Positions 15,339-64,000 of a stretch of DNA of 64,000 nucleotides are shown here, in pieces. Position 1 is the stretch's first letter. Every line of letters begins with the position of its first letter. Both the position numbers and the translations under genes were made by a program. The stretch is from Styela clava (lineage: Eukaryota; Chordata; Ascidiacea; Stolidobranchia; Styelidae). The notes under the pieces were generated by a model. That model was not told the DNA's origin and made no database searches. It saw only the letters and a program-made list of their open reading frames with translations. The DNA is taken from NCBI RefSeq assembly GCF_964204865.1, contig NC_135250.1, forward strand, positions 14,012,001 to 14,076,000, read 5' to 3'.

Positions 15339-17507
15339 TTAAATGTATTGGATTGATTCAAGAGTGACAGATCGCTCTAATAAAATACTCAACTCCTTCG
15401 GAGTAAGCTTTTTTGTTGCGATCTTAGTATATAAAGTATATACGGTATGTAGCTCATTTGTATTGGATATGCACGAGGAGGCCCGTTTAAAATTTTGACT
15501 CTTAAATATTATGTTTATGATTTCACCGTCCTTCTGTACAGTGCAATATTGTGATAGTACCCTCGCTAGAAGTCGTTCGGCTTGATTTGTCAAATTGTTC
15601 TTGTACAACATCTCTGCAAATGAGATGACGTGTGCTACATGAGTTCCGAATTCATCAAAAATACGTGAATACACATCAACTGCAGAATCGTATCGCTTTT
15701 TCCGCATGTGAAGATCAGCTAGGTTTTTGTAGGAATCAATCCGGTTTGGTTCCAGTCGTATTAATCTTACGTATAGCTCTTCCGCCCTTGCGCAGGTAGA
15801 GTGGTTCATTTCCAATATGATTGCCAAGTTGTTTAGAGCTCCAGCGTAGCTAGGGTACAACTTCAAGGTTTTTTCGTACTCTAACATGGCGTCTCTGTAC
15901 CGTCCATTGTCTCGCAGAAAATTTCCCCAGTTGTATCTGATTTTTGCATTCTGTGGTGCTGTATGCACGCCGGAATTGAACAATGTTTCTTTATTTTGCC
16001 AATCCTGGTTCCGAACCCACGTTCTTATGCCATACAAAAGCATTATTGAAATGATTATCGCTTTCAGAACTTTATGAATATTATGGAAGCGGTTATAGAT
16101 ATATTCCCAGAAAACGACAAGTAGAAGAATGTAGCCCATGCTAGGCATGTACAGAGTTCTTTCTGCAATGACGAAGCCGACAGGAAAAAAAAGGTTTGAT
16201 GCAGGTAGGTAGGGAATAAACAACAAGAGATATCCGTAACAGGATGGATTGATAATGCCCGTTTTCCACGTAGCAAATGCTATTCGAAAGGTTATAATAA
16301 TTATAGATATCCCAAACAGTAACGTGACAAAATTACGAATATCGAATATAGATGTTATTATCGGGACAGTGCCGTAAGACCAGTCATAAAGTAAATAAAC
16401 GGGTGCAACCAATAGCTTGAAATTAATCCAAACCAGATATGAATAAGTAAGAAGTCGAGTCATAAAATTACGACTTTGGGAAGCAGGGTTATCAGGTTTT
16501 GCAAATATTGGCTGCGTCCAATTCATTACTGCTAATCGAAAAATAAGGAGCAATGTTATCCAACATATAACTGCTATTGCGCGATAAACATGCAATACTA
16601 CTTTTCCTGAACTTTTTATTGTTGATCCTCTCATGTGAATAAATTCCATTACAAGCATTATACCCAAACTTGTTATTCCACTTTCTTTCGATAGCATCGC
16701 AAATGTGACTAACAGTAGTGAAGAAAAGAAATATATCTTCAACCAAACTTTACAGCTCATGGCATTTAGTAATACTCTTATTCCATCATTCTTCTCATTG
16801 CCGTTTTTATCCCCTTTTTCGTCGGTAATTTTACATCCATGCTGAATTTCTCGCTTCAATGATATATTATAGCACAGAATCGATAGTAGATAGAAGAGCG
16901 ATGACAAAAGCTCAGCTCTTCCGACTATATTTGCTACAGCTTCCGTGTGTATTGGATGAAGCGCAAACAAAATTGCGCTTACAAAAGATAAAATTTTGCA
17001 GTTCGTTTTGGACTTGAATACTACATGATTGCAAACAATCCAGAATAGAACAGACACCACTGAATGCAGACATACATTTGTAACATGAAAGAAAAATTGG
17101 TTGTATCCAAACAGATAATGTTCAAATCGAAACATAAGAATGCAAATTGGCCTATAAGATTTGTGACTTGCGTTGCTTGACATCGGTGTCCCCCAGAAAT
17201 CGTTTTTGAAAACACTCAGTAATCTATTTGATCCCTTGACATCCGGATTCCGTAAAATAGCAGGATTGTCATCATGTATAAAGTCCCCATATAATGTATT
17301 AGAATAAATTCCAAATGCAACGCCAAATATTCCGACACACTGCAACAGACATACAGAATTTATTTTTGGCGTAGTGTTGGCTGATGCTTCCTCTTTTCCG
17401 GCCATAACTTTTTCCGAGCCATCTCCAAATTTGCAGTCGTTACTGCATTCATATTCAAATTTTCTGTCATTCCGTTTGCGGATAGACAATTCATTAACAG
17501 GAACCAT
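15339..17507 (-). CDS. TMTC1: TMTC1-like protein O-mannosyltransferase with TPR repeats, single exon
   Basis: 722-residue multi-pass ER membrane protein. TMTC enzymes O-mannosylate cadherin extracellular domains. After a short cytosolic N-terminus and a first membrane segment (about 51-70) comes the lumenal acidic motif DFIHDD (75-80), proposed catalytic in this fold. Then follow NDFWGTPM, SHKSYRP, ALHPIHTEAVANIVGRAELL, LLTYSYL, APVYLLYDW and PASNLFF..GFVIAERTLYMPSMGY, all typical of the TMTC domain and closest to TMTC1. From about 520 to 655 there are only about four TPR units (NAKIRYNWGNFLRDNGRY, AGALNNLAIILE, DSYKNLADLHMRKKRY, and a weaker fourth). Vertebrate TMTC proteins carry more (roughly eight to ten). 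The gene has no introns, unlike most neighbours. Start is the first ATG (17505-17507). The family is certain; the paralogue is likely. Confidence 0.93.
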   Translation of the reverse strand: MVPVNELSIRKRNDRKFEYECSNDCKFGDGSEKVMAGKEEASANTTPKINSVCLLQCVGIFGVAFGIYSNTLYGDFIHDDNPAILRNPDVKGSNRLLSVFKNDFWGTPMSSNASHKSYRPICILMFRFEHYLFGYNQFFFHVTNVCLHSVVSVLFWIVCNHVVFKSKTNCKILSFVSAILFALHPIHTEAVANIVGRAELLSSLFYLLSILCYNISLKREIQHGCKITDEKGDKNGNEKNDGIRVLLNAMSCKVWLKIYFFSSLLLVTFAMLSKESGITSLGIMLVMEFIHMRGSTIKSSGKVVLHVYRAIAVICWITLLLIFRLAVMNWTQPIFAKPDNPASQSRNFMTRLLTYSYLVWINFKLLVAPVYLLYDWSYGTVPIITSIFDIRNFVTLLFGISIIIITFRIAFATWKTGIINPSCYGYLLLFIPYLPASNLFFPVGFVIAERTLYMPSMGYILLLVVFWEYIYNRFHNIHKVLKAIIISIMLLYGIRTWVRNQDWQNKETLFNSGVHTAPQNAKIRYNWGNFLRDNGRYRDAMLEYEKTLKLYPSYAGALNNLAIILEMNHSTCARAEELYVRLIRLEPNRIDSYKNLADLHMRKKRYDSAVDVYSRIFDEFGTHVAHVISFAEMLYKNNLTNQAERLLARVLSQYCTVQKDGEIINIIFKSQNFKRASSCISNTNELHTVYTLYTKIATKKLTPKELSILLERSVTLESIQYI

Positions 17508-18350
17508 CTTGTTTGTGCTACATGTGATCCTACATGCTTTTCATTTTGTAAACAGATAGCATTGGTATATTATTAACTCTCCTTTTCTCCTGACACAAAT
17601 ATTAAAATAAAGTATATCAAAATAATTAAAATAGATAAAAGGTATTTCTGTACGTACGATGAGTAGTGGAAATAGGGCACGCAGAATATGAGACAATTCG
17701 CCGTAACGGTGCCTGATTACCTATTTCTGCGTCACATTCATCTGGTTATACCTACCCGATTGGCGGCAGGCGAATGGCTTCGCGATGGATGATAGTCAAA
17801 CTTTATAGAGAATGTAATGCGTAAGCATTATTCGAATAATGATGACACGAACAGTAAATGTTTTATCAAATGTGCTGGCATCTGAATGCAGCTGTATCTC
17901 TGCAGTTTTTAAAATTCTATATGAAAATGGATAAAGTGGGATGAGTCAACACCAAAACGTATCAAAATGATCTTTCAAGTCAGGATTCTTCAAATTTGTT
18001 GTTGTTGTTTCTTTGTATCATTGTGTTTAATTAATTAAATGCTTAATATTCCATAGTCAGTGTGGCATCCCATAGTTTATTTTGAATTGTTTCTTGTTCT
18101 TTTTTTTCACGATTGTGTTTATTCAAATAAATATTTATTATTGAGTTGTTCCGTTGCTATATTTGCTGTTTCAATTCAGATACAATGTGTCGCTGATTGG
18201 ATGACTCATTGAGTTTTTCGCGACCCCGCCCCTCATCAACAACCACAAGCCGGTATCCGCTTTTGTAATTAGTGACATGTAATTTATTATTTCATAGCGT
18301 GTATTGGTTTTGCATGACGAAAATAAATATCAAAATCTGAATCTGCCACC
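17508..18350. other. Upstream spacer of TMTC
   Basis: No gene seen. Mostly AT-rich; would include the TMTC promoter, but no clear core element stands out. Confidence 0.4.
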
Positions 18351-36690: not shown

Positions 36691-38600
36691 CTGCATATCA
36701 CGTTACCAACCTTATCACATGAATCCGATGGGCGAAGTAAAAATGAATCGTAAGAGAATAGAAATTCCAACTCTGAAAGGCTATTACTTTTATTTATTCA
36801 AATATTTCTGTAATCTCTATGGGATTCGTTTTTTTGTGTGTTATGACGTCATCAAAATTAGCGCACCTTGTGGCGGCGATTCCGTGAACGCATATCAGCA
36901 GATATCGTGCTCAGCGAACGCCGGCGTATCTCGTGCTAAGCGAAAGTTGGAAGTTTTTTTATGGGGAACGGTAGACTGTGGGACCGGATTTGGTAATACA
37001 GAAGTGACTCGAATCAGGTTGAAACTGAATTATAAAAAATGAATCGTCGTCACAGAACTTGGAAACGATGGGACAGTCCCTGTACCATTAACTGTGACTC
37101 GGATCACTCGGTATTTTAATTCACGTTGAAACTGAATCAAGAAGAATGGATCATCGTCACCGGACGGGAAAAAGCTAGGACGGCCCCTGTACCGTTAAGT
37201 TACACCATATAATTTTGGGAGAATTGGTGATAAAATATTTCGTTTTGCCTTTCGTGTCCATGTATTTGAGCATGGCTTCCTTGTTCATGTTGGCATTTTT
37301 CTTCCTATCGTTGGGAAAAAAATCGCTTTTCTCTTTTATTACTGGACATATTGCTTTGAAATTTTTCACTGGGTGAAGATTGCATTTTTCACTAGAAGCT
37401 TAACTATTTCAAATATTTCTGCGAGCTCCATAGGATTCGTTCGTTTATTGTGTGCTATATAACGCCATCAAAATATGCGCACCTTGGGGCGGTTCCGTGA
37501 ACGCATATCAGCAGATATCGAGCTCAGCGAACGCCGGCGGATCTCGTGCTTAGCGAAAGTTGGAAGTTTTTTTTATGGGGAACCCAGAAAAGCTATGATA
37601 GTCCTTATACCGTTACCGTACCTCGATACAGATACTGATAAGTTACCGCATTTGGTTTATGGGAAATTAGTGATAAAATATTTGGTTTAGCCTTATGCGT
37701 CCACATATTTGAGCATAGCTCTCCTGTTATTATTACTAAGATATGTAATGTACGTAAATTTTTACGAATAAACCTCTTTTTTTATTTATTAGGATCGTTT
37801 TGAAATATGAGTATAAATATATATATGTTGTTCGTCTTTGCATTCTGGAATATGAAAACAAATGCAGCCCAATGTCACCATGTACAGTCAGTCCACTTCT
37901 GCCCATTGTCATTATCGATGCCCATGAAAAAGGCAAAGGCGTATCGAAAGTGATAAATAATTACGCGATTCCAAAAGCTGAAGTGAGTTTTTGAACACCA
38001 AAATCCAATATGAATATATAGCAACTTACAAGAACAAATATATTGATACATATAAAGGAGAGATTTTTGCAGACAGGACATCAAAGGCTACCTATCAACG
38101 GTTGAATAAATATTGACAAAGAGATTCGCAAAGAATAATATATATATATATATACATATTTATGTAACAATGATTATTACTACAACTATGTGCGTCACTG
38201 CAGCGGCGCTGTTGATTACTCAAAAATGAAACAAAATATGGCAAATGCATTGTCTCGACAGAAAATGATGAAAGGACCTATGTTGAAGTGAACTCTTAGT
38301 CTGTGGGTTCGACGTCCAGTCGTTGCCTTTTTCTTCTTGTTCACTTTTGACCATATTGTTGCTTTTGGATCATCAGCAAATTCCTATACCAGACCTCTGT
38401 ACTTGGTAAGCAAATTAAATATAATAATAGCAAGTGCACCCTTTAATGACCCACAATATATCTGAATTACTCTCAAAATAACGCTCTTCTAAGAGGGAAT
38501 GATTGGGGAGGTTGAATAGAATTGAAACCATTGATTCAAATTAATAAGTTACAAAACTATAAATCTCTTCAATACGTTTTGATAATGTTTATTCCCTCTA
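36690..38600 (+). repeat. Repeat block A of a local duplication
   Basis: Shares many segments in the same order with block B at about 41150-43350. Examples: the AATGGATCATCGTCAC region (37120-37200 versus 41280), CACATATTTGAGCATAG (about 37700 versus 41423), AATATGAAAACAAATGCAGCC (about 37850 versus 41560), TTGAAGTGAACTCTT (38284 versus 41941), and CCATTGATTCAAATTAATAA (about 38528 versus 43305). Inside block A, a segment around GTGAACGCATATCAGCAGAT is itself present twice (about 36885 and 37496). No coding capacity was recognised. Confidence 0.75.
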
Positions 38601-39553
38601 TCTTTTTCGCAAACTCAACACATGCCCGGTACCACGACAATACACTAGAATATTCTACCACGCGGAAAATTTGTAATGTTTATAATGAGCGACAAAAATA
38701 CATACATTATATATTGAATTGAAATCGCATTTATTTTTCCGCGAGATCAATTGAAAAATATTTCAACAAGTAGGGCAATTTCTTCACTTCTAGCTTTCAT
38801 TTATTGTTATCAAAAATTTATTTTAAATTCAACACATTATTCAATATACCCGAGCGTGTCTTGCCTGGGATTAATTTTTTGCGATAGTTCTGAAACTTTA
38901 TTTATGATGCAAAAAGTATTTTACGAAATACGAAATCTCTGTTATGATACCGAAGTGAATTTCATGGAAGCAGTTGATGGCGCCACTATAATTGACCACG
39001 TTGTTTAAAATTCAAACCAATCATCATATTATGACGTAACAGATTTTCAAATATTATATGCCGTCCACCTCACCGAATTTCCGGGTTGGAATAATACAGC
39101 TCCCGGGTCTATATTATAGTGGGTACTATTGGAAACGTTTTGTAACATCACAATATCTACAGTACAATTTATGGAAGTAGAAGCACATCAGGTCGGAATC
39201 AATCGCGATTTACTCGGTTTCAATTTGTATACAATGGGTAGGTGTAGTTTTGCCAACCCCGCATAGTCTGATTGCGAACCAAATGGATTGTCTCACCAAT
39301 CCTTTTATTAAGACGGCAAGCAAAATAAAAGTCCAAAACTTCCTTAATCATCGATAACAGAACGCATCGCATACATAACCGTTTAATTATTGCTAGAATG
39401 CTTCGGAAGTACCTCTGATATTCGGGGTTTTCGAAAATCCAATTCTTCTCATGCCATGTATTTAATACTTATTATCGTATACTTCCAGGATTCCCCATAA
39501 AAACCAATGAATTAATTTTGTAAAAGTTTCGTAATTTTATTATTGAAATACAA

Positions 39554-39584
<31 letters not shown>

Positions 39585-39991
39585 ACATAACAACTCAAAA
39601 GATCGATCCAGATTCTGTTACTTGAAATTCATTGTATTGTCATCTGAAAGAAGAAAAAAACACCAATCTCGTATTTAATGAAGACAAAAATGTCGTTGAA
39701 GCAAATCTATATGACGAAATAACAAAAATATATTTTACTTCTGTATTATCAGATTTTGGGAAGATATATTTATTGCGATTTTGTCGTTATTTTGAATGAT
39801 GTAAATCGAGATGGCCAAATTCACAACACTACATTAACTTAAGCTAATTTGTTATTTCGCTTTCAAAACACGGTGTCATAAACTGAAACTTATACACGAT
39901 GTCATAGACAAGTGTGCACTTCGTAAGACCTACTGGTCATGATGGTGCAATGCCACATGAAACCAGCGGTTTAAAAATGGGCTCTATATCC
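38601..39991. other. Non-coding spacer with (TA)n microsatellite
   Basis: No supportable gene. A (TA)n run of about 28 bases lies near 39553-39580. Confidence 0.4.
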
Positions 39992-40188
39992 CAGTGTTAG
40001 GTATAAGTTCCTGAACCCCGAGTCACAAGTAATATCAAGGCAAAAATTATTATTCAATCACTGAGTTGAGTCTCACAGATGGTTACTTAAGTCCGAGTCG
40101 TTTCATTTAGATAACCCGAGTCAATTTTAATTTTGATAATTGATGACTCGATTCCATTCGAGTCGATGACTCGGGTATCCCGGCACTG
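39992..40188 (+). mobile_element. hAT-like miniature element, 197 bp
   Basis: Starts CAGTGTTAGGTATAAG and ends GGGTATCCCGGCACTG. The 8-mers CTATATCC (39984-39991) and TTATATCC (40189-40196) flank it, 7/8 identical. Inside are several CGAGTC/GACTCG motifs. Confidence 0.75.
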
Positions 40189-40196
40189 TTATATCC

Positions 40197-41149
40197 CAGA
40201 TATTTACAGTCTTTTTCTATTATGTACATGTACTGTACTCGTATGACGATTCATTTATTATAGCTTGAAAAAAATATAAGTAGATGACAATTTGGCTTCA
40301 AATTCGTATAGGTGGGGCAAGCCTGTTTTACTTCTTGTTGACTTTTTGCTGACACGATGAGCGGGCAAAATTTCTGACGGTTATTAATATTTTTCCTCTC
40401 CGATTAAGATCTTTTAACCCTAGAGCACGAAAAAAAATTTGTTTATTTTTATTCCAACTTTTGTCAAATTCGAATCACAGTAACATCAGCTCTAATCTGT
40501 ATCGTATTTATTTCTTTTTGTTAAATATACCTATTCATTGTAAATTTTTAGAAAACAGTTGTCTTTGTGTTTTTCTAATTTACCAAACTTTTCCGAACAA
40601 TTTCAATTTTAAAACGCTTAAATTATATTTTCATCTTAAATCTAACCTAATTTTAGATTCGAGCTTCTATTGGTTATCGGTATGAGGGCTATATGTTAAC
40701 GCTGCAGTTTTATGATCTCAAGGTTTGAGATCAGGCGATGAGGCCACCACTTCACGCAAACACTATATTGTTTTCTTACCTTGAAATCATTATTAGAGAG
40801 TGACTTTGTCTTTTTCCCTTTTCTCTAAAATAATAAATATATACTTTGGGGTGATGCATCCCTTACACTACATTCAAGCCTATTTGCCACATAAAAGAAT
40901 CGAGTAGAAACAATTTCTAACAAAACGTTGTTGAATCAAAATGCTGTAAAAAGACGAAGCCGATTATTTTCGAGCAAGATCAAACGGTGCACCGTTTCAA
41001 TAGTAAAGTAAGATATGAATAAAACAAACCTTGCTTTTACGTGACTTCGGTCGAGCTCTTGCATGATCTTGTAGGCTGGGTAGATTACAATTTATCTCGT
41101 TTACATCACTTCTTTTAACGTCAAATGAAGTCAAAATGCAATTGCTGGT
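40197..41149. other. Non-coding spacer
   Basis: AT-rich, nothing recognisable on either strand. Confidence 0.35.
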
Positions 41150-43350
41150 ATGTCTGTATTCTCCTAAGTTACCGCATATGATTTTGGGATGTTTTTTATG
41201 AGGAATGGCAGTCTGCTGTACCTGAACTGGTAGTACAGAAGTCACTTGATATTTCAATTTACTTTGAAACTGAATTATGAAGAATGGATCATCGTCACAG
41301 GATCTGGAAAAGAGTGACAGTCCATGGACTATCACGGTACTCCAATACAGGTATTGAATATTTACCGCGTATGATTTTCGGGGAATTGTTGATAAAATAT
41401 TTCGTTATCCTTACGTGCCCACATATTTGAGCATAGGTCTCTTGTTATCATTACAAAATATATATAAATCTTAATATACGTAAATCTTTACAAAAAAAAA
41501 TCACGTTGATTTATTAGTATCGTTTTGGAATATGAGTATTTCTCAATATGAAATCTGTAATATGAAAACAAATGCAGCCACATGTCACCAATTACAGTCC
41601 ACTTTTGCCCATTGTAATTATCGATGATCAGAGGAAGGGCAAATGAGTATCAAAAGTGACAAATAATTACGAAGATGAATAGGCATATATAGCTACTTAC
41701 AATAACAAAAATATATAAATGGTGAGATTTTTGCAGACAGGGCATCAAAGGTTATCTACCTATGAACAATTGAATAAATATTGACAAAGAGATTTGCAGA
41801 GATTAATATATACATATTTATGAAGCAAAGATTTTTACTACAACCGTGTGCGTCACTGCAGCGGTGCTGTTGATTACCCAAAAATAAAATAAAATATGGC
41901 AAACGCAATGTCTCTATAAAAAATGATCAAAGAATCTATGTTGAAGTGAACTCTTGTCTGTGGGATCGACGTCCAGTTGCCCCTTTTCTTCTTGTTCACT
42001 TTTGTTCATATTGTTGCCTTTGGAACAGACCTCTGAACTTGGTAAACAAATCAATTATAGTAATGGGTAGCAAACCCCATAAATAAATATAAATATCCAC
42101 AATATAGAGTCTGATCGTAAATATATACCACTACGGTCTGATCTACTATCAAAACAAGAGAGCAAGGCTCAAATATATGGACACGCAGAACAATTCCCCA
42201 AAAATCATGTGCGGTGAGTACCAGTACCTGTATCGGGGACCGGGGTACCGTGACGATACAGTGACTGTCATAGATATTTTAGGTCATGTGACAATGATCC
42301 ATTCTTCTTGATTATATTGAAACATTAATAGAAATATCTCGTGATATGAGTCAACTATGTACCGTATTACCGGATCAGGTACCGAACCACAGTCAAAGCT
42401 TTCACATAAAAACGTTACTAAATAACATGCGTCAACTTAACACCACCTGAATCGGGTTACAAATTTTGTTACAGTGACTGTCATAGCCGTTTAGGGCTGA
42501 TGGACGATTCGACCACACAAATAACTCACCAGGTCTATCTGTAGTCGAGTTGTCTCTGGTGAGTTGTCAGTGTGTAGTCGAGTTGTCTGCCTCCCATTTC
42601 ACATGTCCCGTGACTCCATTATTTGAACAAAATTTAAAAAACAAGCCCCGCTTTTACCAGACAGCTACGAGTTAGTTCAGTGCCACCGCGCTGTGTTACG
42701 GTACCGAAACTGCCCTATCTTTAGAAGTTCCTATATTGTGACAGCGTGAATTGAAATTGCAAGATGGTTCGACTCAGAACTGTAGTAACACCATAGATCC
42801 GAGTCACTACTGTAATTTAATAGAATAACACCAAGTACGGCACTATTCGTCATTCACCATTCCTCAAATCTTAGCAAAGCAAGGATTCCATTACGAACCA
42901 CCGACGTTCGATGGCACGCGATCAGAAGAACAGAAGCGTCCGCAGAACGTTCGGTGACGTCATAGCAAACAAAAACAAATCTCACAGAGCCAACAGAAAT
43001 ATTTGAAATAAATAAAAGTAACAGCCTTCTGGAGAAAAATTTCATCTTTAACCACTAAAAATCTCAAAGCAATTGGTCCTGTAATCAAAGAGAAAAGCGA
43101 CTTTTTAGATTTTCCACTAAGTGTCCAAAAAGTGTCAAAGAACATGAACAACAACAACAACATAATATTGAAACGATCGTTATGTCCACTACCGTGTCCA
43201 ACAAAAACAACAACATAATATTGAAACGATCTATAGGTCCACTGCGTGTCCAATAAGGATCTTCTAAGTGAGCATGGTTGTGAATGTTACGAAGAATTCA
43301 AACCATTGATTCAAATTAATAACTTACAAAACTATAAATCTCTCCATTAC
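41150..43350 (+). repeat. Repeat block B of the local duplication, with about 1.2 kb of extra sequence
   Basis: Collinear with block A up to about 42060 and again from about 43260. The sequence between, about 42080-43255, has no counterpart at the same place in A. It contains an inverted copy of a family segment (about 42160-42320, minus), another inverted segment (about 42930-43130) related to 37309-37450 and 50840-51040, and short tandem units. Confidence 0.7.
43155..43257 (+). repeat. Two-unit tandem repeat, about 52 bp per unit
   Basis: ACAACAACATAATATTGAAA occurs at about 43155 and 43208. Each copy is followed by CGATC, a short variable part, and GTCCACT..CGTGTCCAA. Confidence 0.8.
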
Positions 43351-46300
43351 GTTTTGATATATAACTGTTTTGCTCGACTCTTGGTCTGTCAGAACAGAGT
43401 CGGTGATGAAAATTCACTCACCCGGATAGTAATGTTAATTCTCCCGGTATCGCAACAATATAATGGACTATTCGACCACATGGAAAATAAATTCATCAAG
43501 ATGACTGGGTAAGATGACAGCCATATTATTTTAACGCGCTACAACTTGAGTGCAAACGTAACTTTTTCAATCGACAATGACTAAAACATATGTATGAAAG
43601 TTTAATGTTAGTGTGTCACTTAGCTCATTTCGCATGAATATTGATTAAATAATGCATTTAATATAAGTTATTGAATTTTTGGCGTCACAATTATCAATAT
43701 CCTCAGTTATTTTTATTATAGTCTTAGTTTGTTCATTTATATTTTCAACTTGTTTTGTGTTTTGAAAAATAAAGAAATTTGAGAAGATGTGCAAATTCCA
43801 AAAAAAGTAATTTATATAGTAATAGCTTGGTAAAATGAAAATGATAAAAGTTGACACAAAAGTTGAAGTAGAATAGAATATTCATTATTATTAGGAAAAA
43901 TGGTAAATTCAATCAAACAAAAGAAAAATTACTGATTTTCAAAAACTGAATCCTTCCGCACTGATTGTATTTGTAACAAAAATCTAGTTGATGTTAAAAC
44001 TCTAACCAAAATACTAAACATGTTAATAATTTTGCGTGTATTCCTATTTACACGTACGAGTCTGTAAACACGGAAATTTTTCAACAATTCAACAATACGG
44101 CTTTTCTCGTGAATTTTACACAGCCCGGTTGCGTTCTATAAACACCTGTAATATATATACATGTGTTTAAAGAATTTATATTTATATATTACATATATAT
44201 TTATAGATCTGACACTACAAATCGAGATTGATTTGTATCACTACATTAAGATTGATTAATTAGGATCCGTTTCCAGCGACGTTGACACAAATACGTCACA
44301 AATTTGAAAATTGTTTATTTATTGACATCACCATTCAAAATAAAACTGAATCGTTTTAAAAATAACAGTGTATGTTAAAATTCTCATGAAATAAAAACAA
44401 AGATCACGTTCCAATAATACCAGATATATAATACCATTATCAAAATAATAAAACTGACAGTTTTTGGATAATGACGACAACGGAAACTTCTTCTTGCGAT
44501 AAAAATCTAAATATTTTCAATCAATAACTTGAAAATTGGTCTTTGAAATTAGCATCGTAAAAATGAGTTTTCCGATACTAATGCATTTACCAAGACATCT
44601 TATTAGTCCTCAAGTCGGATGTTCACTTTTGAAAAGAATAATAACTTTTCTTTCAAAGTCTAAAATCTGTTTCCTGCCTTCTTCCATGATGTTGGTTTCA
44701 AAATAGAAATCAAATAGAACCTTATAGGTATAAATGTTTCCTTCGTCCCTAAAAGATTCTCCCTATACTTTATCATTGCAAAATTTTCAACGCTGATTTT
44801 ATGAGTGTTTTAGAGAGTTGGCGCTGTGTGTTCAAAACTATCATTTTTATCCAAACACAATCAAAAACTAACAATAACACGCAAAACTACCAAAAAGAGG
44901 CAATGTTCACAACGCGCTTGAATATCTATCTGAGCGAAAGAAGTGTCTGAGCGACGGCATAAATTCCAATTGTTACGTCATTGTTAACTTATTGTTAATT
45001 TGTTATTGTTACGGAATTAAACAAGAAAATCATGCTCGGGGATACATTCATCAACCTAAAACAACCTAGTGTCCTAAAACCTAAAAGAAACGAAAACGTA
45101 TCGAAAAAGAAATGATTTTAAATGTATTTTATTCGTGATCTCATCTGACCTTCAAAATTCATACCTAATAGTTTGACTATATCTTAAGCAATGAGAGGCC
45201 ATTACATTCGAAAAATACAATACTTTATTTGAAAATAATTCAGCCCAGTACTACATGCAGGTAAGCTGTGAACAAGTCAAAACTCTAACGTTTTGAAAAT
45301 ACTGCAAAATGAACACACACATTTTTACTCAAATTACATTGATGTTTAATTGTTTAAAGCACTAAAGTTGAAATATGATAGATATGACTATTCGTTTTCA
45401 TTTCACAGATTTCCGAAAAAAAAGATACTACCGTAGTATGTGTACTAGATTAGGGTTAGGCCGTAATTTTTTCCGGTTTTCCTCATTCTAGTTCTATTAC
45501 GAGTTTGGGGACAATCTGTGTTAGCCGATGGAATAGATGGAAAATTTAATCAAAAAATATAAAAGTTACCTACCGTTCTGAAACTGAAGTTTTTTGGATT
45601 GATATTAAACCAATATTCTGATTTGTGAAGGAATCATGATTTGCGACGATCAGTATATATATATACCAGTTCATCGATAAAACATAGAGCAATTTATATC
45701 AAAACGATAAATTTTTTGACAACGTAAAAGTACGCTTCTACAGGCACATGAAGTGTTTTTTTTTTTTGTTGTATATTACAGGATATAGATGCGTGCTACG
45801 AAGAAAACCATATCCTTGAAATTGACTGTCTAATTTTTCTACCTTTGCGATGTATTGCATACAACTTTTCATTTGCTTTACATTTTGCATTACAACAGCT
45901 TAATTTTAGCAGAATCACGTTTAAAAAAATTTTGGTTGCCCTGTTTATTTCAAACTAGTATTTTTCAATCATTTGTGGTATTTACATAGTTTCACATTTG
46001 TTTAACGATCGATTAGTTTAGGACTTAGTTATTAGTTTAGGACTTCGACATTTCAGTACGAAATTGACACAGATAATATACCAATTCAAAATCTTTATTT
46101 AATCATTTAGAATGAAACCGATTTATTTTGATAGTATTGATAGAAAATCTGCAAGATAAAAACCTCTTGAAAATTATAAACTGATCATATTCTAAAAATA
46201 ACATATTATAACATAATCAAAATATAAACGACCAACTTAAATATGTTTTCAAGAATATTAGCTCTAATTGTTGTAAGTTGGCATTGTTCAAATTAAAAAA

Positions 46301-47589: not shown

Positions 47590-47596
47590 TATATAA
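47590..47596 (+). promoter_or_regulatory. TATA-like box upstream of the secreted-protein gene
   Basis: TATATAA lies 64-70 bases before the ATG at 47660. Transcription would start near 47620 and give a 5' UTR of about 40 nt. Weak evidence in such AT-rich DNA. Confidence 0.35.
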
Positions 47597-47659
47597 TGTA
47601 GCACACTTTCAATACAAAGCCATTAGAGACCGATTACCAGAATATCGCATCAACTAAAG

Positions 47660-48594
47660 ATGAACCACATTAATCTTAAACCCTCGTTTTTTGCCTTGCT
47701 TTCTCTGATAGTGTTCGTCCAGATGTCGTTTTGTTCGCATTATAACAGACCAGATTATTGTATAAAAGCAGAAGTAAAATATCTAGCGAGTAAGATTCTA
47801 CATTCGGTTATTGAGATGGTGAGTTCTGAATCTAATCTATATTACGCATTCAAGGATATGGATACAAAAAGTAATGCGATATCTGTTATTTCAGAATTCA
47901 GGTTCCTATTTATCAACAAGGATAGACATTTTGAGGTCGATTGATAATTTATTTGAAGATGATGAAAATGAAGGAAATGTACAAATAAATCCAAACGTTT
48001 CTCGATTCAAAAAATTAATTGAGTTTGTCCAAGACGGTGTAGTATGATATATATTATATTATAAATATATAGTATTGATATATTCAAAACATTTGCATTA
48101 AATTCAACTTTATCATTTTAGAAATCAAATGTTGTTAGAAAATGCTTTTTTGGTGGAATGAATTTACTAGCTTTAGTAAATGAGGAAATTCTCAAAGAAT
48201 GCACAAAGGTAGTGTTTCTTTTTATTAATTATGACGAAAAATATTATATGATGTTTTAATATTGTTATTATAATAATTTAAAAGGATCGCCAGACCGGAA
48301 AGTGCTTTGTATCCTCACTTCGGCGTAGTAAGGTGAGTGTGTTTCATTATTTTTATTTTTGAAAAAAATATTTAAATGCACGATGAAATATTTTGCTTAT
48401 GTCACAAAATTTTCTTCCAGGATCGTAACACACAACGTCTTAGGAGCATAAGCGATTTAACCGATAAAAGAAGAACTTCTGCAAAAATTGAATTTTTTTC
48501 AGCTGAGTTGGAGAAAAATCCTATAACGATCTGCACTGCTTTCTTGAAAAGAGCTCGAAGAATTATCAATAGCATGCAAAGATGCGCAAAATAA
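47660..48594 (+). CDS. Secreted six-cysteine helix-rich protein, helical-cytokine-like gene layout (unrecognised family)
   Basis: I do not recognise the family. Five exons join in frame: 47660-47818, 47895-48041, 48122-48208, 48285-48332, 48421-48594, giving 204 residues. Residues 1-26 are a signal peptide with core FFALLSLIVFVQM. The mature part has six cysteines (34, 110, 129, 138, 185, 202), enough for three disulfides. Stretches look like amphipathic helices: about 36-52 (KAEVKYLASKILHSVIE), 90-128 (FKKLIEFVQDGV onward to LLALVNEEILKE) and 186-200 (TAFLKRARRIINSMQ), with a basic Arg/Lys-rich last third. All four introns are phase 0, which is characteristic of class I/II helical cytokine genes (IL-10 and IFN-lambda types also have five exons). 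Splice sites are canonical and each intron is short (76-88 nt). Cytokine identity is inference from architecture only; another secreted helical protein is possible. Confidence 0.75.
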
Positions 48595-48746: not shown

Positions 48747-48752
48747 AATAAA
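48747..48752 (+). promoter_or_regulatory. Polyadenylation signal of the secreted-protein gene
   Basis: AATAAA about 150 nt after the stop. The intervening 3' UTR has ATTTA pentamers (near 48605 and 48739), which in cytokine mRNAs mark unstable transcripts, but they are also expected by chance here. Confidence 0.5.
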
Positions 48753-49972
48753 ATATGATTTTTTATTGTGTATGCATATTATATTTCAGTTTTATAATTG
48801 AATCACTTTTTATCATATTCAGCTCTTCATTCATTTTCATAACTATTTATTCAATTATTTATTTTTATTGTTTAGGATATTTGAATAATCTCAATATTTA
48901 TTTAAATTAGTTGTATAGTGATTGTATATTTTGTTTGCGCTGTTATTTTCTACCGACGACTAAATGATGATTTTGGAATTTTATGTATCGTATATATTGA
49001 AGTAGTATGGGGTATTTATAAATTGTGACTATGAACGGATCAACAAAAAATTATAGATTGTGCGTAATTGTATTTGAAGTAAAAATTAAAGATTTATATT
49101 AAACCATTGAAAGATGTGAAATACCCACATACAGTTTGTTTTGCACAAACTCTGGTCCAGACTTTTATCATAAAGTAGAAAAATCTTACAAAGTTAGTTT
49201 TGTTAAAAAAAATTTAAGCAAATTTATGTCTTTGAGATATTGATCTAGTTACTAGGTTTAGGTATATCACCAGTACCCCAGTTTTTTTTACTAGTTTTTT
49301 TTACAATTTTTTTACGAATCACATTACTGCATCATTTACCCAAAATAACATGGCGAAAACCAATATAGAAGCCTTATTGGCAAAAAACAGCAAGTAAATA
49401 TTCAAAATTATCCCCGATTACGTAGATGAGACGTGAGATACTAATACAAATACATGAGCTGATAACGCGTTTCTTGTGTAATAAAGCAAACATCAAAAAA
49501 TTACATTTTCTCATTTTATGGCGAATGGAATCTAAGAAGGGAATAAATGAAATTATTCAGAATATTGTGGTTGAAAATTTTGCTTGTTATAATTCATAGA
49601 AACAACATCATGAACAAAAAGTTCAAAGCAGTCCCGTGCAGAGTCATCTGCCGCAATGCAGATAGTAATAATAAACAATTACTGAACTTAAATGCGCAAC
49701 AAAATTGACTATGTAACTTTAAAATTTCTAAAAGTACAATCTTGGTGTTCATGTTAAAGCTTTTTAATGCAACTTTGAGTTTTTACGAAGCAAAATAAAT
49801 ATTACAGTTTGTAAACACAACGTGTGAAAACCTGCCCGTTTATTGGTTGATGATAAAGTCCGACAAATGTATCGATTGGAATTGGTGACGGCAGCAATAA
49901 TGATGATATTCATGTTAGTTCTTACTTATCGATCTTAAAGTCGGTAAGTATGTTGATAGGTATTTGTTTGTT
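48753..49972. other. AT-rich non-coding spacer
   Basis: Nothing recognisable; several ATTTATTTA-like stretches near 48842-48905. Confidence 0.35.
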
Positions 49973-50060
49973 TGTTTGTTTGTTTGTTTGTTTGTTTGTT
50001 TGTTTGTTTGTTTGTTTGTTTGTTTGTTTGTTTGTTTGTTTGTTTGTTTGTCTGTCTGTT
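49973..50060 (+). repeat. (TTTG)n microsatellite with TCTG end
   Basis: About 20 uninterrupted TTTG units pass into TCTGTCTG. It is followed by a unique-looking flank (ATGCACGCGATATCTCACGA) that may belong to a mobile element with this microsatellite at its edge. It creates spurious Cys-Leu-Phe-Val and Lys-Gln-Thr-Asn repeat frames on the two strands. Confidence 0.95.
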
Positions 50061-52801
50061 AGATGCACGCGATATCTCACGAAAGCGAGGTTGAATCTGT
50101 TTCAAATTTTGCATGTGCATTCATCATATCTCGGACCATAAGCCCATTGATTTTAGATGAATTATGTCGTATAATTAGCGAGGTATTAATTAATTAGTGA
50201 TGGGACACGCGGTGTCACTATGAAGTCGAATGAATGCGAATAAATCGAAACCACAGTTTCTGTTTTGGGGGATCCCCTAACTTTCGATCGATAAGTCTTC
50301 GGTCTCTGATCGATATTCTCGTTTCCGAGTTTGCTCATTCGAGCACTCATTCAAAAATAAGGGTAAGTCATCTCTTAGTAAATCTACAGGCGACCATGCT
50401 GATTTGCGGTATTAATGATACGCCAGTGAATATAAACTGAGGCAGTAAAAGCAAGTACATCGAAACAGCTTTGGTAGTAAAGTTCGCATAAATGCTTTTT
50501 ATAAAATATAATTTTGGCATAAAATTTTCTTCGTTTAGAGCTCGATCAAAATATATATCTGGGAGAAGGCAAGGTGTATAAGTTCAAAAAAAAAGTCATG
50601 TTTTTTTCTGGCCATAGATGCATAAAGCATACCAAATATTTCAACAATCCTGTTGTCAAACTAAACGTTTGTAATGCATTAAAAATAAGCCCACGAGTAG
50701 CCTCACTGTTTAAGTTGTGTTTGGCCTCATATAATATATATACAATAAGAGAATAGTTTGATTAAAAAAACGATTCATTGAACACATAGTGATCTTTCAT
50801 CATGATCATGGATTTATTTGTTATTTTTATGTTGTTGTTTTTGTTGCTATTTTTCTCTTCGTTGTGATGAAAAAATCTCTTCTCTTTTTAATCACTGGAT
50901 CAATTTGTTTGAAATTCCAGTGTTTAAAGATTGTAATTTTGTTAGAAGACTATTACTTTTATTTATTTAAAAGTTTTCTGAGGTTTCTACGGAATTCGTT
51001 TTAATATTTAATGACGTTATTGAAAAGCATCGCTTTTTGTTCAATATTTGATCCCGTATTTTTGCAACATCTAATATTTTGTAGGATTCATCTGTTCATT
51101 GTTCGTATGCTTTTATCCCTCTCGCAAGCAATCCAACATCTAAAAAATTTGTCAAGGTTTTTCCATAGACACAAGTCGCTTGCAAGTACTGCCATTGTGC
51201 TGAAAGATGGTTCTGCGAAGTAATAACAATTAAATCATCATCTAAGAACAGTTCAAATATTACAGAGGATTCTGCGTTTCTTCTAATCGATGAGGTAAAC
51301 GTAAATCTGAAATTGTTGTCTAGGATAGTGTGTAATGTTTGCATTGTGTTTAACCAGCGTTAGATGATAGGATTAGGTATAAGGTGGTTTTACATTTGTT
51401 ATCTGTAATAATTATCATGAATTGTAATTTATTAGAAGCATGTTCAAGCACAACACTTTCAACTGTTTGCCTTCAATTTAATTGCCGTCGATATATTCAT
51501 CATGTTGTATCGCGTGGAGCAGTGGTACCCCATCGAAATGTTGACATTAAATAAAATTCCTCACAGCTCGGCAATTTTGAAGCGAATGCAATAGCTGCAC
51601 TGTTTTAATAAACACTAACTAATAGGAGCATTCACAATAACGTTAAAATTCATGTGCCAGACAAGCGTAAATAAAACAGAAATTGAAAATTAGTTACAAG
51701 AGGACCTGCTTCTATAGTTAGTTTTGTGATCATCCGACAATGAAGCATTATTATATGTTCATCAAATCCACGAACGCAAAACATATAACCACAACAAAGA
51801 GGGCTGACATATGGCATAGCCTAGCCCTAGGCCCTACTATTGATTTAATTCATGATTTCCTATCTTGAACATTCTACAAGTTGGTATGTTTTGACATTTA
51901 TCCGATCCGAAAAGGCTATGCTGGCAGAAAAAAGAACAAGGCAAGTACCAAAATTTCACGCTGACAGACAAAAAACTACGCGGACGGCAATTGGGAAAAA
52001 GACACCTCATTTCCAAATCTATTGCTCATTTTTTCGCATGATTAGGCTGAATTCTTAAGAGCAGAAAACACTTGATAATTATAACTTTTTGATATAATAT
52101 GGAAAGTGCGAGCGTGATCAAAATATTTTGCACAGATGAGCCGACTAGAGATTTGGGACTAAAATCATGACCTTCTCCAATGATATACCAAATACGATGT
52201 ACTCTGTTACATGAAATTCAGAAGCGGATTATGAATCCATCTACAAATTAAGAAAATAAATATACCTTCAGAAATGAGACAGCATTAAAAATCACCATCA
52301 TATAATTTCATTATAATGTTCCGCTTATAACGTTAGGTGGAGCTACGGAGCCAAATATATAAAATATCGATTGTCACAACAAAAGTTATTCATACTTACT
52401 TGTTTCATACATAGCTGTCTGATGTATAATATTACTGATCTATTCATCGATAAATATTCATCAATCATTGTTAACGTCATATCAGCGGTCTGAAGTTTTG
52501 GATTCAGTTTAAATCTTAGTTTTTGTTTTTGTTTGGAACTCCGAAGCAATCGTTTGTTTTATTTAACCTAATGTTAAAACGGTAACATCTTATTTTCATG
52601 CTGGCCCATGTCACTTGGTTTGTCAGCTACTCACAGCTTCCTTAAACATACTGAGAAAATTACGAAATTAGGTCTAGTTCAACATAAAGAAATAAACAGT
52701 TTTTAATGATTATTAGGTAGTTACAAAGTGTGGTGTATACACAACACATTCCAGGGGCGATATTGATGAGGAATCGTATAAAGGTTTCACATTCGTTGTT
52801 T
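50061..52801. other. Non-coding stretch with a dispersed-repeat copy
   Basis: About 50840-51040 is a diverged copy of the family seen at 37309-37450 and inverted at 42930-43130 (shared TTACTTTTATTTATT and GGAATTCGTT-like blocks). No gene supported. Confidence 0.45.
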
Positions 52802-58051: not shown

Positions 58052-61000
58052 CTACTTTGCGCGGCCAGTTACATTTTCAGCTGCCCCAGCCACTGCGGTC
58101 GGTTCAACTTTCACTCCGTTCATTTTTGTGTTTCCGTTCTCCTGACCAGTGGTAGTATGGGTTTTTACGTGTTTGCTGAGATGATCACTTCGTTGAAATC
58201 TCTTGTTGCACACGGGACATGCAAATCTCTTCTCCCCTGTAGTGTAAGAAAATAGCATGGATTACATTTTCCTGGGCGCCGAGAGTACTAAGGACAATTG
58301 ACTTCAATTGGTGTGTTTATTATGATAACGACTTTTGTCGATAGAACACAACGAACAATCTAAATTTCTCAGACGACCGAATTTGATCATAATTCAATCG
58401 ACACAAATTTCAAATACCATAAGTAGAAAACTTAAGTGCGAAAATAGTTCATATATTCCAAGGCTTATATTTGTTATATGATAGCAACAGTCAAAAATAT
58501 TCGAGGTATACTAAATACTTTTGCCCAAGCGCCAACCAAACTACAGATTGGTCTTTTTTATGATGATTTTGATAAATTTACATTGTGTAAGCATATAAAT
58601 ATTTTTCTTCGCTATGCGTAATCGATTATTTATAATTAAAAACTACATCTTCTTGGTTCGCAATTTCAAATTAACTTTATCAAAAAATTGTGAAACTAGG
58701 TTTATTTGACTCTTCTATCATTTTGTAGTACGTTACGTTAAGGCATTAGTAAAATAAAAAATAAAATAACGACGCTCGATTTAATTATCGAACAAGGCAG
58801 TAATTTAAAATTAGTTGTCAGGTGCTTAAGTGTTCGGGTCACACGCTCAAAATGATGTTACAAAGACCAAAGGCGTTAATTCTACCTTCCATTTTTACAT
58901 AATGAAGATCGTTTAAGAGAGAAAATGCCGGAAATTTGAAATAATAGTCTGGGAAAGTTGAACGTCGCGGTTAAAGTGGAATTGTTGTCGTTGGACATTC
59001 TCATAAAATGGTTGTTTTGTCGGTCGAATATTAACTTGATAGAAATAGGATTATAATAAAGAAGACATTTAAATATCTTTCAATCATGTATCATTTGTTT
59101 AAGATGTCCACTTAAATTGCAGACAAAAGTCCTCGAAATATATACGGTTATCCGCAAAATGGTGGTAAACATACTTTTTTGACGCGTAATCACGCCTTTC
59201 ACTTCGAACAAGGCCCAGCATAATACTTCTGACGATATAATTTAACGATACATAAAATAAATAATAATGGTACCTGTGTGCCATCTTAGATGAGCCTTCA
59301 AATGTGATGTTTTATTGTAGACCTTTCCACAACCAGGAATATGGCAACTGTGAACTTTAGGTTTAAATGATGAAGCAGCTGGTCCTAATCGCTCGGCTTC
59401 TTGACAATTTGGGCATTCACAAATCGATCTGAAATAATAATGTTATATGTCAAATCCAGATAAGCGCCATTTTGATTTTCGTATGACTATATTCAATACG
59501 AAATCAGTCATTATATAACGAACACCCATTCTTTCATTCTTATTTTTCAATAGGTATTGTGCTATAAGCAAGTATTGTGAAAAAAAATCCTCAACCAAAA
59601 CCAGAAGCTAAATGCAGGCGACTTATGAAACAAGAGATTTTAAAAATATCACAGATGTTTGGGTAAACGAAATTCCGGAGAAAATAACATCTTAGGGGTG
59701 AAAATTACATTGGCCATGAAAGAAATTTTTTGCTGGCATTTTCACTAATAAAAAACACCTTGCGCTTAAATGCCTGTTCGTGAATTGTCTTTTTATGAAC
59801 GAAAGTGTGTAACAGGATGTAAAAACTAATCCTAATTACAATGGTTTTAAGAATAAACATCTGTAAAGAAATTTACCGTCCAGAATATCGACGAGTTGAA
59901 CGTGTTGGTCCCGGTATTGAAGGAGTTGGGATCATAGCCGGAAGTGCAGGTGGGGGTGCGGGTTCTGAAGAATACATACTTCCAGTTGTGCCTGGAAGTA
60001 CAGGCTTGAAGGTGTCGTATGGGTTGTGATGTTGAGCTAAACAAAAAAATAAATTATTCATGATTCTGTGAAAATAGAAAACTATTATTTCCACACACAG
60101 TACTTTGTAGTAGAAAATATTCTATTCCACGAAACAATGATTCAAAAGGTTTTATTTTTCATACAGAGTTTCGATTTTATAACAAAAATATGAGAAATTA
60201 CATACCTGCTGTGGATAAACTTCCTAGTGATGTTAGAGGTGCGGCAGAAAACGAATGGTGATATTCAGACGGGTATGCTGCCGCTGCCATCTATAAAAAT
60301 ATTATGAACACCATATTACCGACACAAATTTAGAAACGTTTTGCTAGTTGGTAAAACATTTTTGGTAATAAAACCTTTGTTCCGAAAAAGCTCGTTACTC
60401 TTCCCTAAACAAACTTTTATTTATAAAACGATTTACAAATCTAACCTCAATTAAAATATGTTTACATTAGAGAGATTTTTTGTTGTACATAAGTATACCT
60501 TTTACCTCATAATATAATTATTACATATATTGATAATTATGATAACTGGTAAACATCATTAATCACGCTGTGACAATTTTGTGAAGATTCGTAGTTATTA
60601 TTTATCTGGTATTGGAGGCAGAAAAGAATAAAAGCCTCAGAAACCATTTTGCAATCACTGAATAGATGAACAAATTCTTTACCTGCTGGTGATGTTGTAG
60701 ACTTTGCATTTCAAACCAGGTATTAGTTGAATGTAATGCTGCTTCCCATGGATTGGTGTGAGCATACGCTGCGGCAGAAGTTACATAACTAGATGACGTA
60801 GTACTTCCAGTACTAGGGCTTGAATTTGAATAAGTTCCTAATGCCGTATTTGGAGAAGAATTTGTTACGCCTTCTACATTGATATTGTTCGACGGCTTCT
60901 GATACCATACTTCATATGCTTTTGATCCGTATGAACTCGAAACTCCAGGGTAGCTGTTACTGGTAATGAAAATGAAAATATTATTATACATATATCATCA

Positions 61001-62017
61001 AAATTCTAACTAATATAAGATTGAATATTGCCAGAAAATGCATCATCCGTACACCCCCAGTACCATACTATTAAGTAACTGAATATACTTTACCTGTTAG
61101 TTAAAGTTCTGCTTGAAGGTGCTGATGATACAAGGTATGTTGCTGATTCTAATGTTGAGTGTGGATAGAGCATGCCTGGTGGGGAAGTTGGTGGTGGTGT
61201 GATATGATACGGCGAAGATGTTGTGGAACAATTACTTTCCGTGGGCGATCCAGATCCTAAAATGAAAAAACCCGATTCAATTGAGTGGAAGTACATTTAT
61301 AAAAGTGAATTTTTCAACCTACCGGTATATTTTTAATATTTTATCAAAAATGAAATCGTTTTATGGGACTGTACACAGAAGGCACATAGGGTTAAGTCGC
61401 ATTCCATAAATATATCAGATTACCGGAACTTCTTCCGAGGTTTTTTTTTGAAACACTAGTTTATACAACAGAAAAGACACAAATAATGTAAAGTGGTTTC
61501 TTACCTGTATTTTGGCTGTTGCTGGGAGAAACTGGAGATGACGCTGAGTAGAAAAAAACAAAGGGTGTTGAAAGAAGTACAAACTAATGATGCAATTAGA
61601 ATTTAGAAATTATATTTCTTGAAATGCTATGCTATAAAACCTTATTTAATAAAGTTTCATTTTAATCATCTCAAAGTATTCGCAAATTTGAACGATCGAG
61701 TTATTTTTTAACTTACCTTGATTGTGGGTTTTGTGTTGCATTTTGCTCACAAACGCGCTTGCGTGATGATGTTGTAATAACGGTGCTCCTACACCTATAT
61801 GATAAGTAAGATTAATTATTAACAATTATAATCATACTGACTGTGTATGACATCCAGATGCATTACTGAATAGTGAAGAAATAATTCTTTGTACATATAT
61901 TTAAAAACACTTTCAAGTCACAAAATAAATGATAGACTTACCTAAATAATAGTCACCCAGGCTGCCGGTACCTGTAGCTGTAGGCGACTGAAAAAGTGAA
62001 GCTGTAGGTGCGCTCAT
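58052..62017 (-). CDS. Buttonhead/Sp-family zinc-finger transcription factor (Sp8/9-like), nine exons, finger 2 not found
   Basis: Nuclear DNA-binding factor expected to recognise GC/GT boxes. Minus-strand exons: 62017-61942, 61794-61717, 61543-61505, 61256-61094, 60959-60683, 60290-60206, 60036-59877, 59428-59274, 58236-58052. They sum to 1218 nt, or 405 residues. The N-terminal half is Ser/Thr/Pro-rich ([23 protein letters not shown]) with the aromatic [17 protein letters not shown] motif. Just before the fingers is the Btd box [21 protein letters not shown] (CECPNC at 296-301). Finger 1 uses C321, C326, H339, H343; the last finger uses C351, C354, H367, H371 ([21 protein letters not shown]). 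Between them the reading frame joins HLRWHTG directly to EKRFACP: the standard middle finger is absent. A likely sumoylation site VKVE is at 386-389. The ATG at 62015-62017 is chosen; the frame is open further upstream. HVKTH favours Sp8/9. Confidence 0.9.
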
Positions 62018-64000
62018 ATTAATCTTCCTATAAATATTCTTAGTTGAATAGTAAGTGTTAAAAGGTTTACCAATCAAACTGCGAAAAAGACAACAAATTT
62101 CAGAACATTTCAAATTTCATACACTTAATCTATCAAATATGCGACTCCCTAATCTGACCTACTTCAGTTAATCTTCAAATTCGTTGGAATTCTGTAAATC
62201 TCAAACTCCGCCCTCTGCGCTGTGGGCACTTTTCTAAGAGTTGAAGATTTGTAAATCTACGAAATGATTCATTTACTTCTTAGAAATAATATTAGTACTA
62301 TTGCATTTGAATGCAATCGATAGAATATAAATTACAGGTATTACTCGAGTTCGTATTCTTGACTCGTACAATCATTAATAATACTCCTTGCCAATTGCAA
62401 GCTTACATATATCGCATTACGCGCACTTTTTTCCCGCGACGGTTTCAGTTGCGTCCTGATATCTCTTCTCTCGTACGACGTTCTATCTTACAAATTTCGC
62501 CTCTCGTTTAGGCTAATCGCAAGGTTGTAGGCATATCTCATTTTATTAGTCTTTATCATTATCGCTTGCGCTGATATAGAGCAAAATAAAACCCTGTCAT
62601 TATCATCTGGCAAATATACAGATATTGAACTGAAAATCACAATCTATTATCTCCGATAACTGTAATTTTCTTGTTGATTATCGGTCCACGATGCTCTTCT
62701 TAATTGCCATTACTAATATTTATCAATTTACGGAACTACCATTCCTAACAATTATTTTTTGTGTATTTACAGAAAGTACCTCGTTTATTTTAACTACTTT
62801 TTTGGGATATCGGGAATCCTTAGAAAATACCTAACATTAATTTCTGGGGTCTTGGTTTTAATGTGTCTGTTCATGTTGAAACAAATGAACAATATTTCAA
62901 TATGTTTGTCTCCGTATAGCCTACATTTTTATATCTATAAAATGGCGACACTTTTTCGATATGTGCTTGGCAATGCACTAAACCTGATTATATCGTCCGA
63001 TTTAAAAGAGGTAAGTTTCAATATAATGAAATATTATAAATGAAGTAATCCTCAGTTGGTATCGGGTCACTCTTTGGTAGCCAACAATCATTATTGTGTA
63101 GACCTCAATTATATCATTCGGTTTATCACAAAGTCAACAAGTTTGTAATAGTTATGTAAAATACATACAGCTCATTCTATTATAGCCGTCAATGTCATTT
63201 AATTGGTCACGTGAGGATTTTAAATTTCATACTTTAATGCGACACAGACATAGAGAATTCCCACGGCGTTTTGTGGGATTTCCCACCCTTTAACACGTAA
63301 TTCAAGTTCAATTCCAAAGTCGATACACCCTTGGCAACAGAACTTCCGTCTCTATCGTGTCGCTAAGTAATAATGATAATCGCACAGGAGAACGTCATGC
63401 ATTTCGTTCATGCGACTATGGGTGATTTAGAAGATGTGTGCTGGTATACCTTCCTGTATTCAAAAAAAGTATGATACTCTCCAAGTGGAAAATTGGCACC
63501 CTTCTTAATCTGGAGATATGAAAACGTTATATTAGCCGGGGTAGTACGGACATCCGTTACGTAAATGAAAATATGCCAATTTCCATCCGATTTTTGAGTA
63601 ACTTGAAATACCGGAATATTTGAGTTGATCTTCTCAACAGTTTATGGCTAAGAAATTAACAAAGTTCTTTTCAGACTTGAGTAAGTATATAGAAGACATA
63701 TTGGGAGTCGCTGGCCGGCGTTACGTTACTCGCGTTTCGACTTGACGTTAGCTCCACAAAATTGCCAATATAAAATCTTTGTCAAGTTTCCCAATGCAAA
63801 TTATTGATGATAAAACCTTTTTCAATCAACCGCACATCGAAATATCTTTTGAAACTGACTGAAGACGATTCTTAAGATTCTCTTTATTTAAAATATTTAC
63901 CAAACAGTATGTATTTTTTTGTAATTTGGTAATTTATAATCTGAAATACTACTAATCTTTTCAAGCTTTTCTTTGTTGCACCGCTGAATCACTTGTATAA
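62018..64000. other. Upstream region of the Sp gene
   Basis: About 2 kb with no gene supported. A CCGCCC GC-box-like motif lies near 62210. An open plus-strand frame at 62759-63043 has no domain and contains runs of hydrophobic codons typical of AT-rich noise. Confidence 0.4.

Follow-up and report, generated by a model that had tools for sequence, protein, structure and literature searches.

A candidate five-exon gene for a predicted secreted helical protein in Styela clava

Do the short open frames at positions 47660 to 48594 (forward strand) of the 64,000-nucleotide window, the whole stretch of DNA analyzed here, form a real gene, and could its product act as a helical ligand of the cytokine type? 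A sequence-only reading had described a possible helical-cytokine-like gene at this locus, with five small exons encoding a leader and a 178-residue mature chain with six cysteines.

Gene structure and flanking signals

Read directly in the letters, the five exons join without a stop codon into 203 codons (203 amino acids), in sizes of 53, 48, 29, 16, and 57 codons, which bears out the proposed leader and six-cysteine mature chain, with uncertainty at two boundaries. Exon 1 (47660 to 47818) encodes the leader (codons 1 to 25), a helix-prone segment at about residues 35 to 52, and Cys34, and it ends at a strong GTGAGT donor. Intron 1 (47819 to 47894; 76 bases; GC, 0.32) is followed by exon 2 (47895 to 48038, the end possibly lying at 48041), which carries two predicted helices (residues 56 to 77 and 86 to 101) and an N-glycosylation sequon at N87. 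Intron 2 (48039 to 48121; 83 bases; GC, 0.16) begins with a weak donor. Exon 3 (48122 to 48208) contributes a helix-prone segment at about residues 114 to 130 together with Cys109 and Cys128, and intron 3 (48209 to 48284; 76 bases; GC, 0.15) ends in a weak acceptor. Exon 4 (48285 to 48332, the start possibly lying at 48294) comprises 16 codons that include Cys137; its GC content is 0.52, and the introns on either side have GC contents of 0.15 and 0.24. Intron 4 (48333 to 48420; 88 bases) has both a strong donor (GTGAGT) and a strong acceptor (TTCTTCCAG). Exon 5 with its stop codon (48421 to 48594) encodes predicted helices at residues 149 to 178 and 180 to 202, a basic KRR motif at residues 162 to 164, and Cys184 and Cys201. 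Introns 1 to 4 all have GT...AG ends, and all are of phase 0, as had been claimed, because the length of each exon is divisible by three.

Two of the eight splice sites in this five-exon model scored below 0. At the exon 2 donor, the site at 48038 was weak, and the splice scan preferred 48041, which adds one residue; at the exon 4 acceptor, the site at 48285 was weak, and the scan preferred 48294, which removes three. Exon 4 is the weakest-supported exon, and its omission preserves the frame, giving a four-exon variant of 188 amino acids that scored 14.6 bits versus 10.3 bits for the 203-residue model. In every full-length variant (188, 201, or 203 amino acids), the introns are of phase 0 throughout. 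The gene region also yields shorter chains with introns in other phases; its top-scoring chain in the local splice-chain scan was one of these, with 111 amino acids and phases 0, 1, and 2 (18.7 bits).

The flanking signals claimed for the locus were present but not distinctive. The TATA-like box TATATAAT (47590 to 47597, forward strand), a candidate core promoter, contains TATATAA (47590 to 47596), the start and end of which lie 70 and 64 bases before the ATG; the signal is weak, as TATAWA occurs in 9.4% of 40-base intergenic pieces. Three ATTTA motifs lie in the 3' region, a number that is ordinary at a GC content of 0.20 and is reached in 21% of 98 matched pieces. About 150 bases past the stop codon is AATAAA (48747 to 48752, forward strand), a candidate polyadenylation signal, which fits, together with the N87 sequon, a gene for a secreted protein. 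A TTTG microsatellite of about 24 copies (49963 to 50060) lies 1.4 kb downstream of the gene.

Comparison with chance and genomic surroundings

A structural search matched to the model (a hydrophobic leader, four phase-0 introns of 60 to 100 bases, and at least 150 amino acids) retrieved the 201-residue variant from the gene region. Applied to dinucleotide-shuffled versions of the region (2.4 Mb in total, 517 leader-like ATGs), the same search retrieved no match, and it retrieved none from 59.8 kb of real intergenic strand (17 leader-like ATGs). This comparison overstates the case because the criteria were chosen once the model had been seen. Under loose criteria (two to five introns of any phase, 45 to 150 bases each), the gene scored 13.9, and eight matches were retrieved from real intergenic DNA, the best at 9.7; 640 kb of shuffles yielded a single match, with a score of −41.6. 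The region's best chain (the 111-residue chain, 18.7 bits) exceeded those of all 500 shuffles (maximum, 15.1). Gene finding across the whole window was uninformative, as it chained unrelated genes and did not include the gene in its top chains; only the local scans were informative.

Base composition and codon usage were examined separately. The exons exceed the introns in GC content by 0.133, and none of 785 slid placements of the model reached such a contrast. Part of this difference is expected because open frames avoid AT-rich stop codons. Codon usage gave no clear support and is compatible with either the presence or the absence of the gene: 9.2% of 2,000 null chains scored as high. By exon, exons 2 and 3 ranked above 97% of 349 null open reading frames (ORFs), and exon 4 ranked below 97% of them. 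The codon-usage test has little power, as the leave-one-out score for the TMTC gene of the window was itself negative.

These results bear on the alternative that the open frames line up by chance, that they are what is left of a decayed gene, or that the middle exons of the model are drawn wrongly. The weak codon signal, the weak exon 2 donor and exon 4 acceptor, and the higher-scoring versions (exon 4 shortened or skipped, or the 111-residue chain with its other phases) speak for this alternative. When 160 overlapping 1.2-kb pieces of strand were compared, eight likewise had best chains above 18.7 bits; none of these lies at the gene, and most start at 36 to 42 kb, in or near a repeat cluster. 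Against it stand the empty matched searches of shuffled and real intergenic DNA, the exon-intron GC contrast, and the helical periodicity described below. We regard a chance, decayed, or misdrawn chain as decidedly improbable and consider it very likely that the five-exon gene is real.

The gene was said to stand alone, which is a fair description: barring two weak DUF matches, the nearest pieces recognized by Pfam are a sulfotransferase ending at 25637 and a C2H2 zinc finger starting at 58055. Beyond 25 kb there are 115 ORFs that reach 62 codons; 99 of them (up to 58252) went into one joint Pfam scan, and 10 of the other 16 into separate scans. The scan of the 99 ORFs retrieved one sulfotransferase piece and the two DUFs (E values of 1.4e-4 and 8.8e-3). 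Across the window, Pfam recognized a JmjC/cupin ORF (3255 to 4694, forward strand; a single stop-to-stop frame of 480 codons), a kelch ORF (10003 to 10614, forward strand), a TMTC O-mannosyltransferase ORF (15342 to 17540, reverse strand; a single stop-to-stop frame of 733 codons), and two Sulfotransfer_2 pieces. The C2H2 matches lie on the reverse strand at 58055 to 58261 (above the cutoff) and 59245 to 59442 (just below it), within a probable multiexon zinc-finger gene downstream (58055 to 62417, reverse strand) whose extent comes from a rough gene finder. No tRNA was found in the window, nor any Rfam match at gathering thresholds. The gene content of the window points to an animal whose introns are small.

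The repeat cluster spans 36797 to 43359 and consists of diverged copies that are 71 to 87% identical over up to 845 bases (e.g., 37596 to 38428 with 41315 to 42064), with a further copy at 50870 to 50980; these are probably old transposable elements. By eye, an ORF at 767 to 1228 resembles the end of a Ty3/gypsy-type integrase, with no match in Pfam. A transposon enclosing the gene was also considered, and six inverted pairs (18 to 33 nucleotides, 70 to 84% complementary) were found, none of which was convincing as transposon ends.

Leader, helices, and search for relatives

The leader (residues 1 to 25) was recognized by hydropathy only. Its most hydrophobic 12-residue window spans residues 9 to 20, and windows above 1.6 start at residues 6 to 15. 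Judged by eye, cleavage after C25 is plausible and would leave the 178 residues. The six cysteines of the mature part are at positions 34, 109, 128, 137, 184, and 201, and the mature chain is basic (33 Lys and Arg versus 22 Asp and Glu).

Amphipathic, helix-like segments had also been claimed, and the helical character held up within the tests that follow. The mean helical moment of the mature chain was equaled by only 4 of 500 shuffles, and hydrophobic periodicity gave a single peak at 100°, the angle of an α-helix (z = 2.36), with none at strand angles. The count of strongly amphipathic windows did not reach significance (38 versus 20.2 in shuffles; 7.0% of 500 were as high). Among chains assembled from nongenic ORF pieces, 1 of 300 had equal periodicity; z exceeded 2.4 in 3% of 232 single nongenic ORFs, and no single exon was significant alone. 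In five other proteins of the window, z was −2.4 (kelch), 0.4 (TMTC), 1.2 (JmjC), and 5.0 (both sulfotransferase pieces); genuine proteins thus differ greatly in this measure.

AlphaFold2 was run without an alignment on individual exons, a single-sequence mode that favors helices. Exon 5 alone was modeled as two helices (149 to 178 and 180 to 202), with a mean pLDDT that ranged from 73.1 to 87.7 over five models, and exon 2 alone was modeled as two helices (56 to 77 and 86 to 101), with a range of 54.4 to 68.0. Simple helix propensities also marked segments near residues 35 to 52 and 114 to 130. Taken together, the two exon models and the two propensity segments suggest that the protein likely has five to six helices. 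A Foldseek search of the exon 5 model against the PDB returned no match at an E value of 10, a result that applies to this piece and says nothing about the whole protein.

The exon 5 model also bears on whether the product could be a prohormone from which cleavage at the KRR motif would free a C-terminal helical peptide. There are seven dibasic sites in the whole protein, including those at residues 143, 162, and 163, which speaks for such a precursor. The model places KRR within a long helix, and both this and the lack of a Pfam family match count against a prohormone, which we rate as very improbable.

Searches for relatives of the protein agreed with the earlier statement that family identity is not shown by sequence, as Pfam, NCBIfam, and PDB sequences gave no family match. 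In Pfam, the 203-residue form matched no family up to an E value of 10, and the 188-residue form retrieved only DUF1287 (E = 0.16), far under that family's cutoff. The absence of matches in NCBIfam carries little weight because the library covers bacteria and archaea. Among PDB sequences, two chains alone were retrieved (E values of 0.73 and 1.8), both ribosomal and neither meaningful. Pattern searches returned 4 stretches from a viral contig collection and 37 from a prokaryote contig collection, with no relative among them; distant relatives would escape these searches, whose seeds were six short peptide patterns that had to match exactly. No paralogue was found in the window, in which the gene is present as one copy: the best unrelated tblastn match had an E value of 1.7, and one 32-base blastn match (6e-4) fell in AT-rich DNA. 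The gene may well already be annotated as an uncharacterized protein.

A leader, six cysteines, predicted helices, a basic mature chain, and no family match are together consistent with a secreted helical protein that is lineage-specific and not a cytokine, such as a lipid- or odorant-binding-like carrier or an antimicrobial, seminal, or mucosal protein. Secreted orphans of this sort are common in animals. Odorant-binding and saposin-like proteins share the leader, the six cysteines, and the all-alpha tendency with the protein described here, but the spacing of its cysteines (34-109-128-137-184-201) is unlike either pattern; the C2-x3-C3 spacing of the six-cysteine insect odorant-binding proteins is absent, and Pfam gave no match to these families. 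No positive evidence favors any single one of the listed functions. We consider a noncytokine secreted helical protein a serious possibility, though short of probable.

Relation to helical cytokines

The gene structure, hydrophobic leader, cysteines, and helical periodicity were read directly. From them we infer secretion, a bundle, disulfides, and a receptor. In the proposed mechanism, the leader would direct the protein into the secretory pathway, the five or six amphipathic helices would pack as a bundle braced by up to three disulfides, and the protein would then act extracellularly as a diffusible helical ligand, as class I and class II helical cytokines do. The chances are about even that the core of this reading holds, namely, a real orphan gene for a secreted, helical protein. 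The product would have about 20 kDa, be mostly α-helical, and probably be braced by disulfides. The ligand step is tentative, and we lean against it at present. The protein plausibly works in the way of a helical ligand, but we stop short of assigning it to the cytokines, a family defined by fold and receptor, both of which are putative here.

Sea squirts and insects have orphan class I/II receptors, exemplified by gp130-like and CRLF3 receptors. It is quite unlikely, though conceivable, that the protein is an endogenous helical cytokine from an invertebrate lineage with no recognized ligand of this type and hence a candidate ligand for such receptors. If the ligand reading is true, the origin of helical cytokines becomes directly testable; if it is false, this is an orphan gene for a secreted protein of the ordinary sort.

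A helical cytokine that is one by descent would be a divergent ligand belonging either to class II, as an IL-10/interferon-like member, or to class I, as an IL-6/Upd-like one, and would signal through a JAK-STAT-coupled receptor. The features that point to such an assignment are permissive: the phase-0 share of introns is 0.45 to 0.5, so that four phase-0 introns alone would occur in about 4 to 6% of random four-intron genes. The exon proportions (53/48/29/16/57 codons) also differ from the exon-size layout of IL-10 and IFN-λ genes. Five coding exons, introns all of phase 0, and a signal peptide were found here, with no match to a class II sequence profile; for class I (IL-6/Upd type), Pfam likewise gave no match with either the 203- or the 188-residue form. 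We judge cytokine ancestry unlikely on this balance.

The lack of matches is not damning to cytokine ancestry, as such ligands lose similarity; zebrafish IFN-υ is reported to be 4.8 to 23.3% identical to its relatives (PMC8863823). Invertebrate class I helical cytokines are also secreted and extremely divergent: Drosophila Upd3 is described as IL-6-like (PMC8226699), and the amphioxus growth hormone-like protein (GHl) has 208 amino acids and low identity to vertebrate GH (PMC9010856). The interferon response is described as not conserved in tunicates or amphioxus, and an interferon-like protein has been reported in oyster (PMC8218723). Closest in gene structure are the class II genes (the IL-10 family, IFN-λ, fish type I IFN, and IFN-υ), which share with the Styela gene five coding exons, phase-0 introns, a signal peptide, and a product of about 160 to 200 amino acids, as well as multiple helices, which are predicted for the Styela protein. 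IFN-λ genes have five conserved exons with phase-zero introns, and the IL-10 family has the same intron phases and positions (PMC2654155). IFN-υ was itself found by scanning intergenic DNA for a gene split into five coding exons by phase-zero introns, with a signal peptide and multiple helices in its product (PMC8863823). Within the reach of the tests made here, the Styela gene agrees with these features, which makes it a reasonable but unproven helical-cytokine lead.
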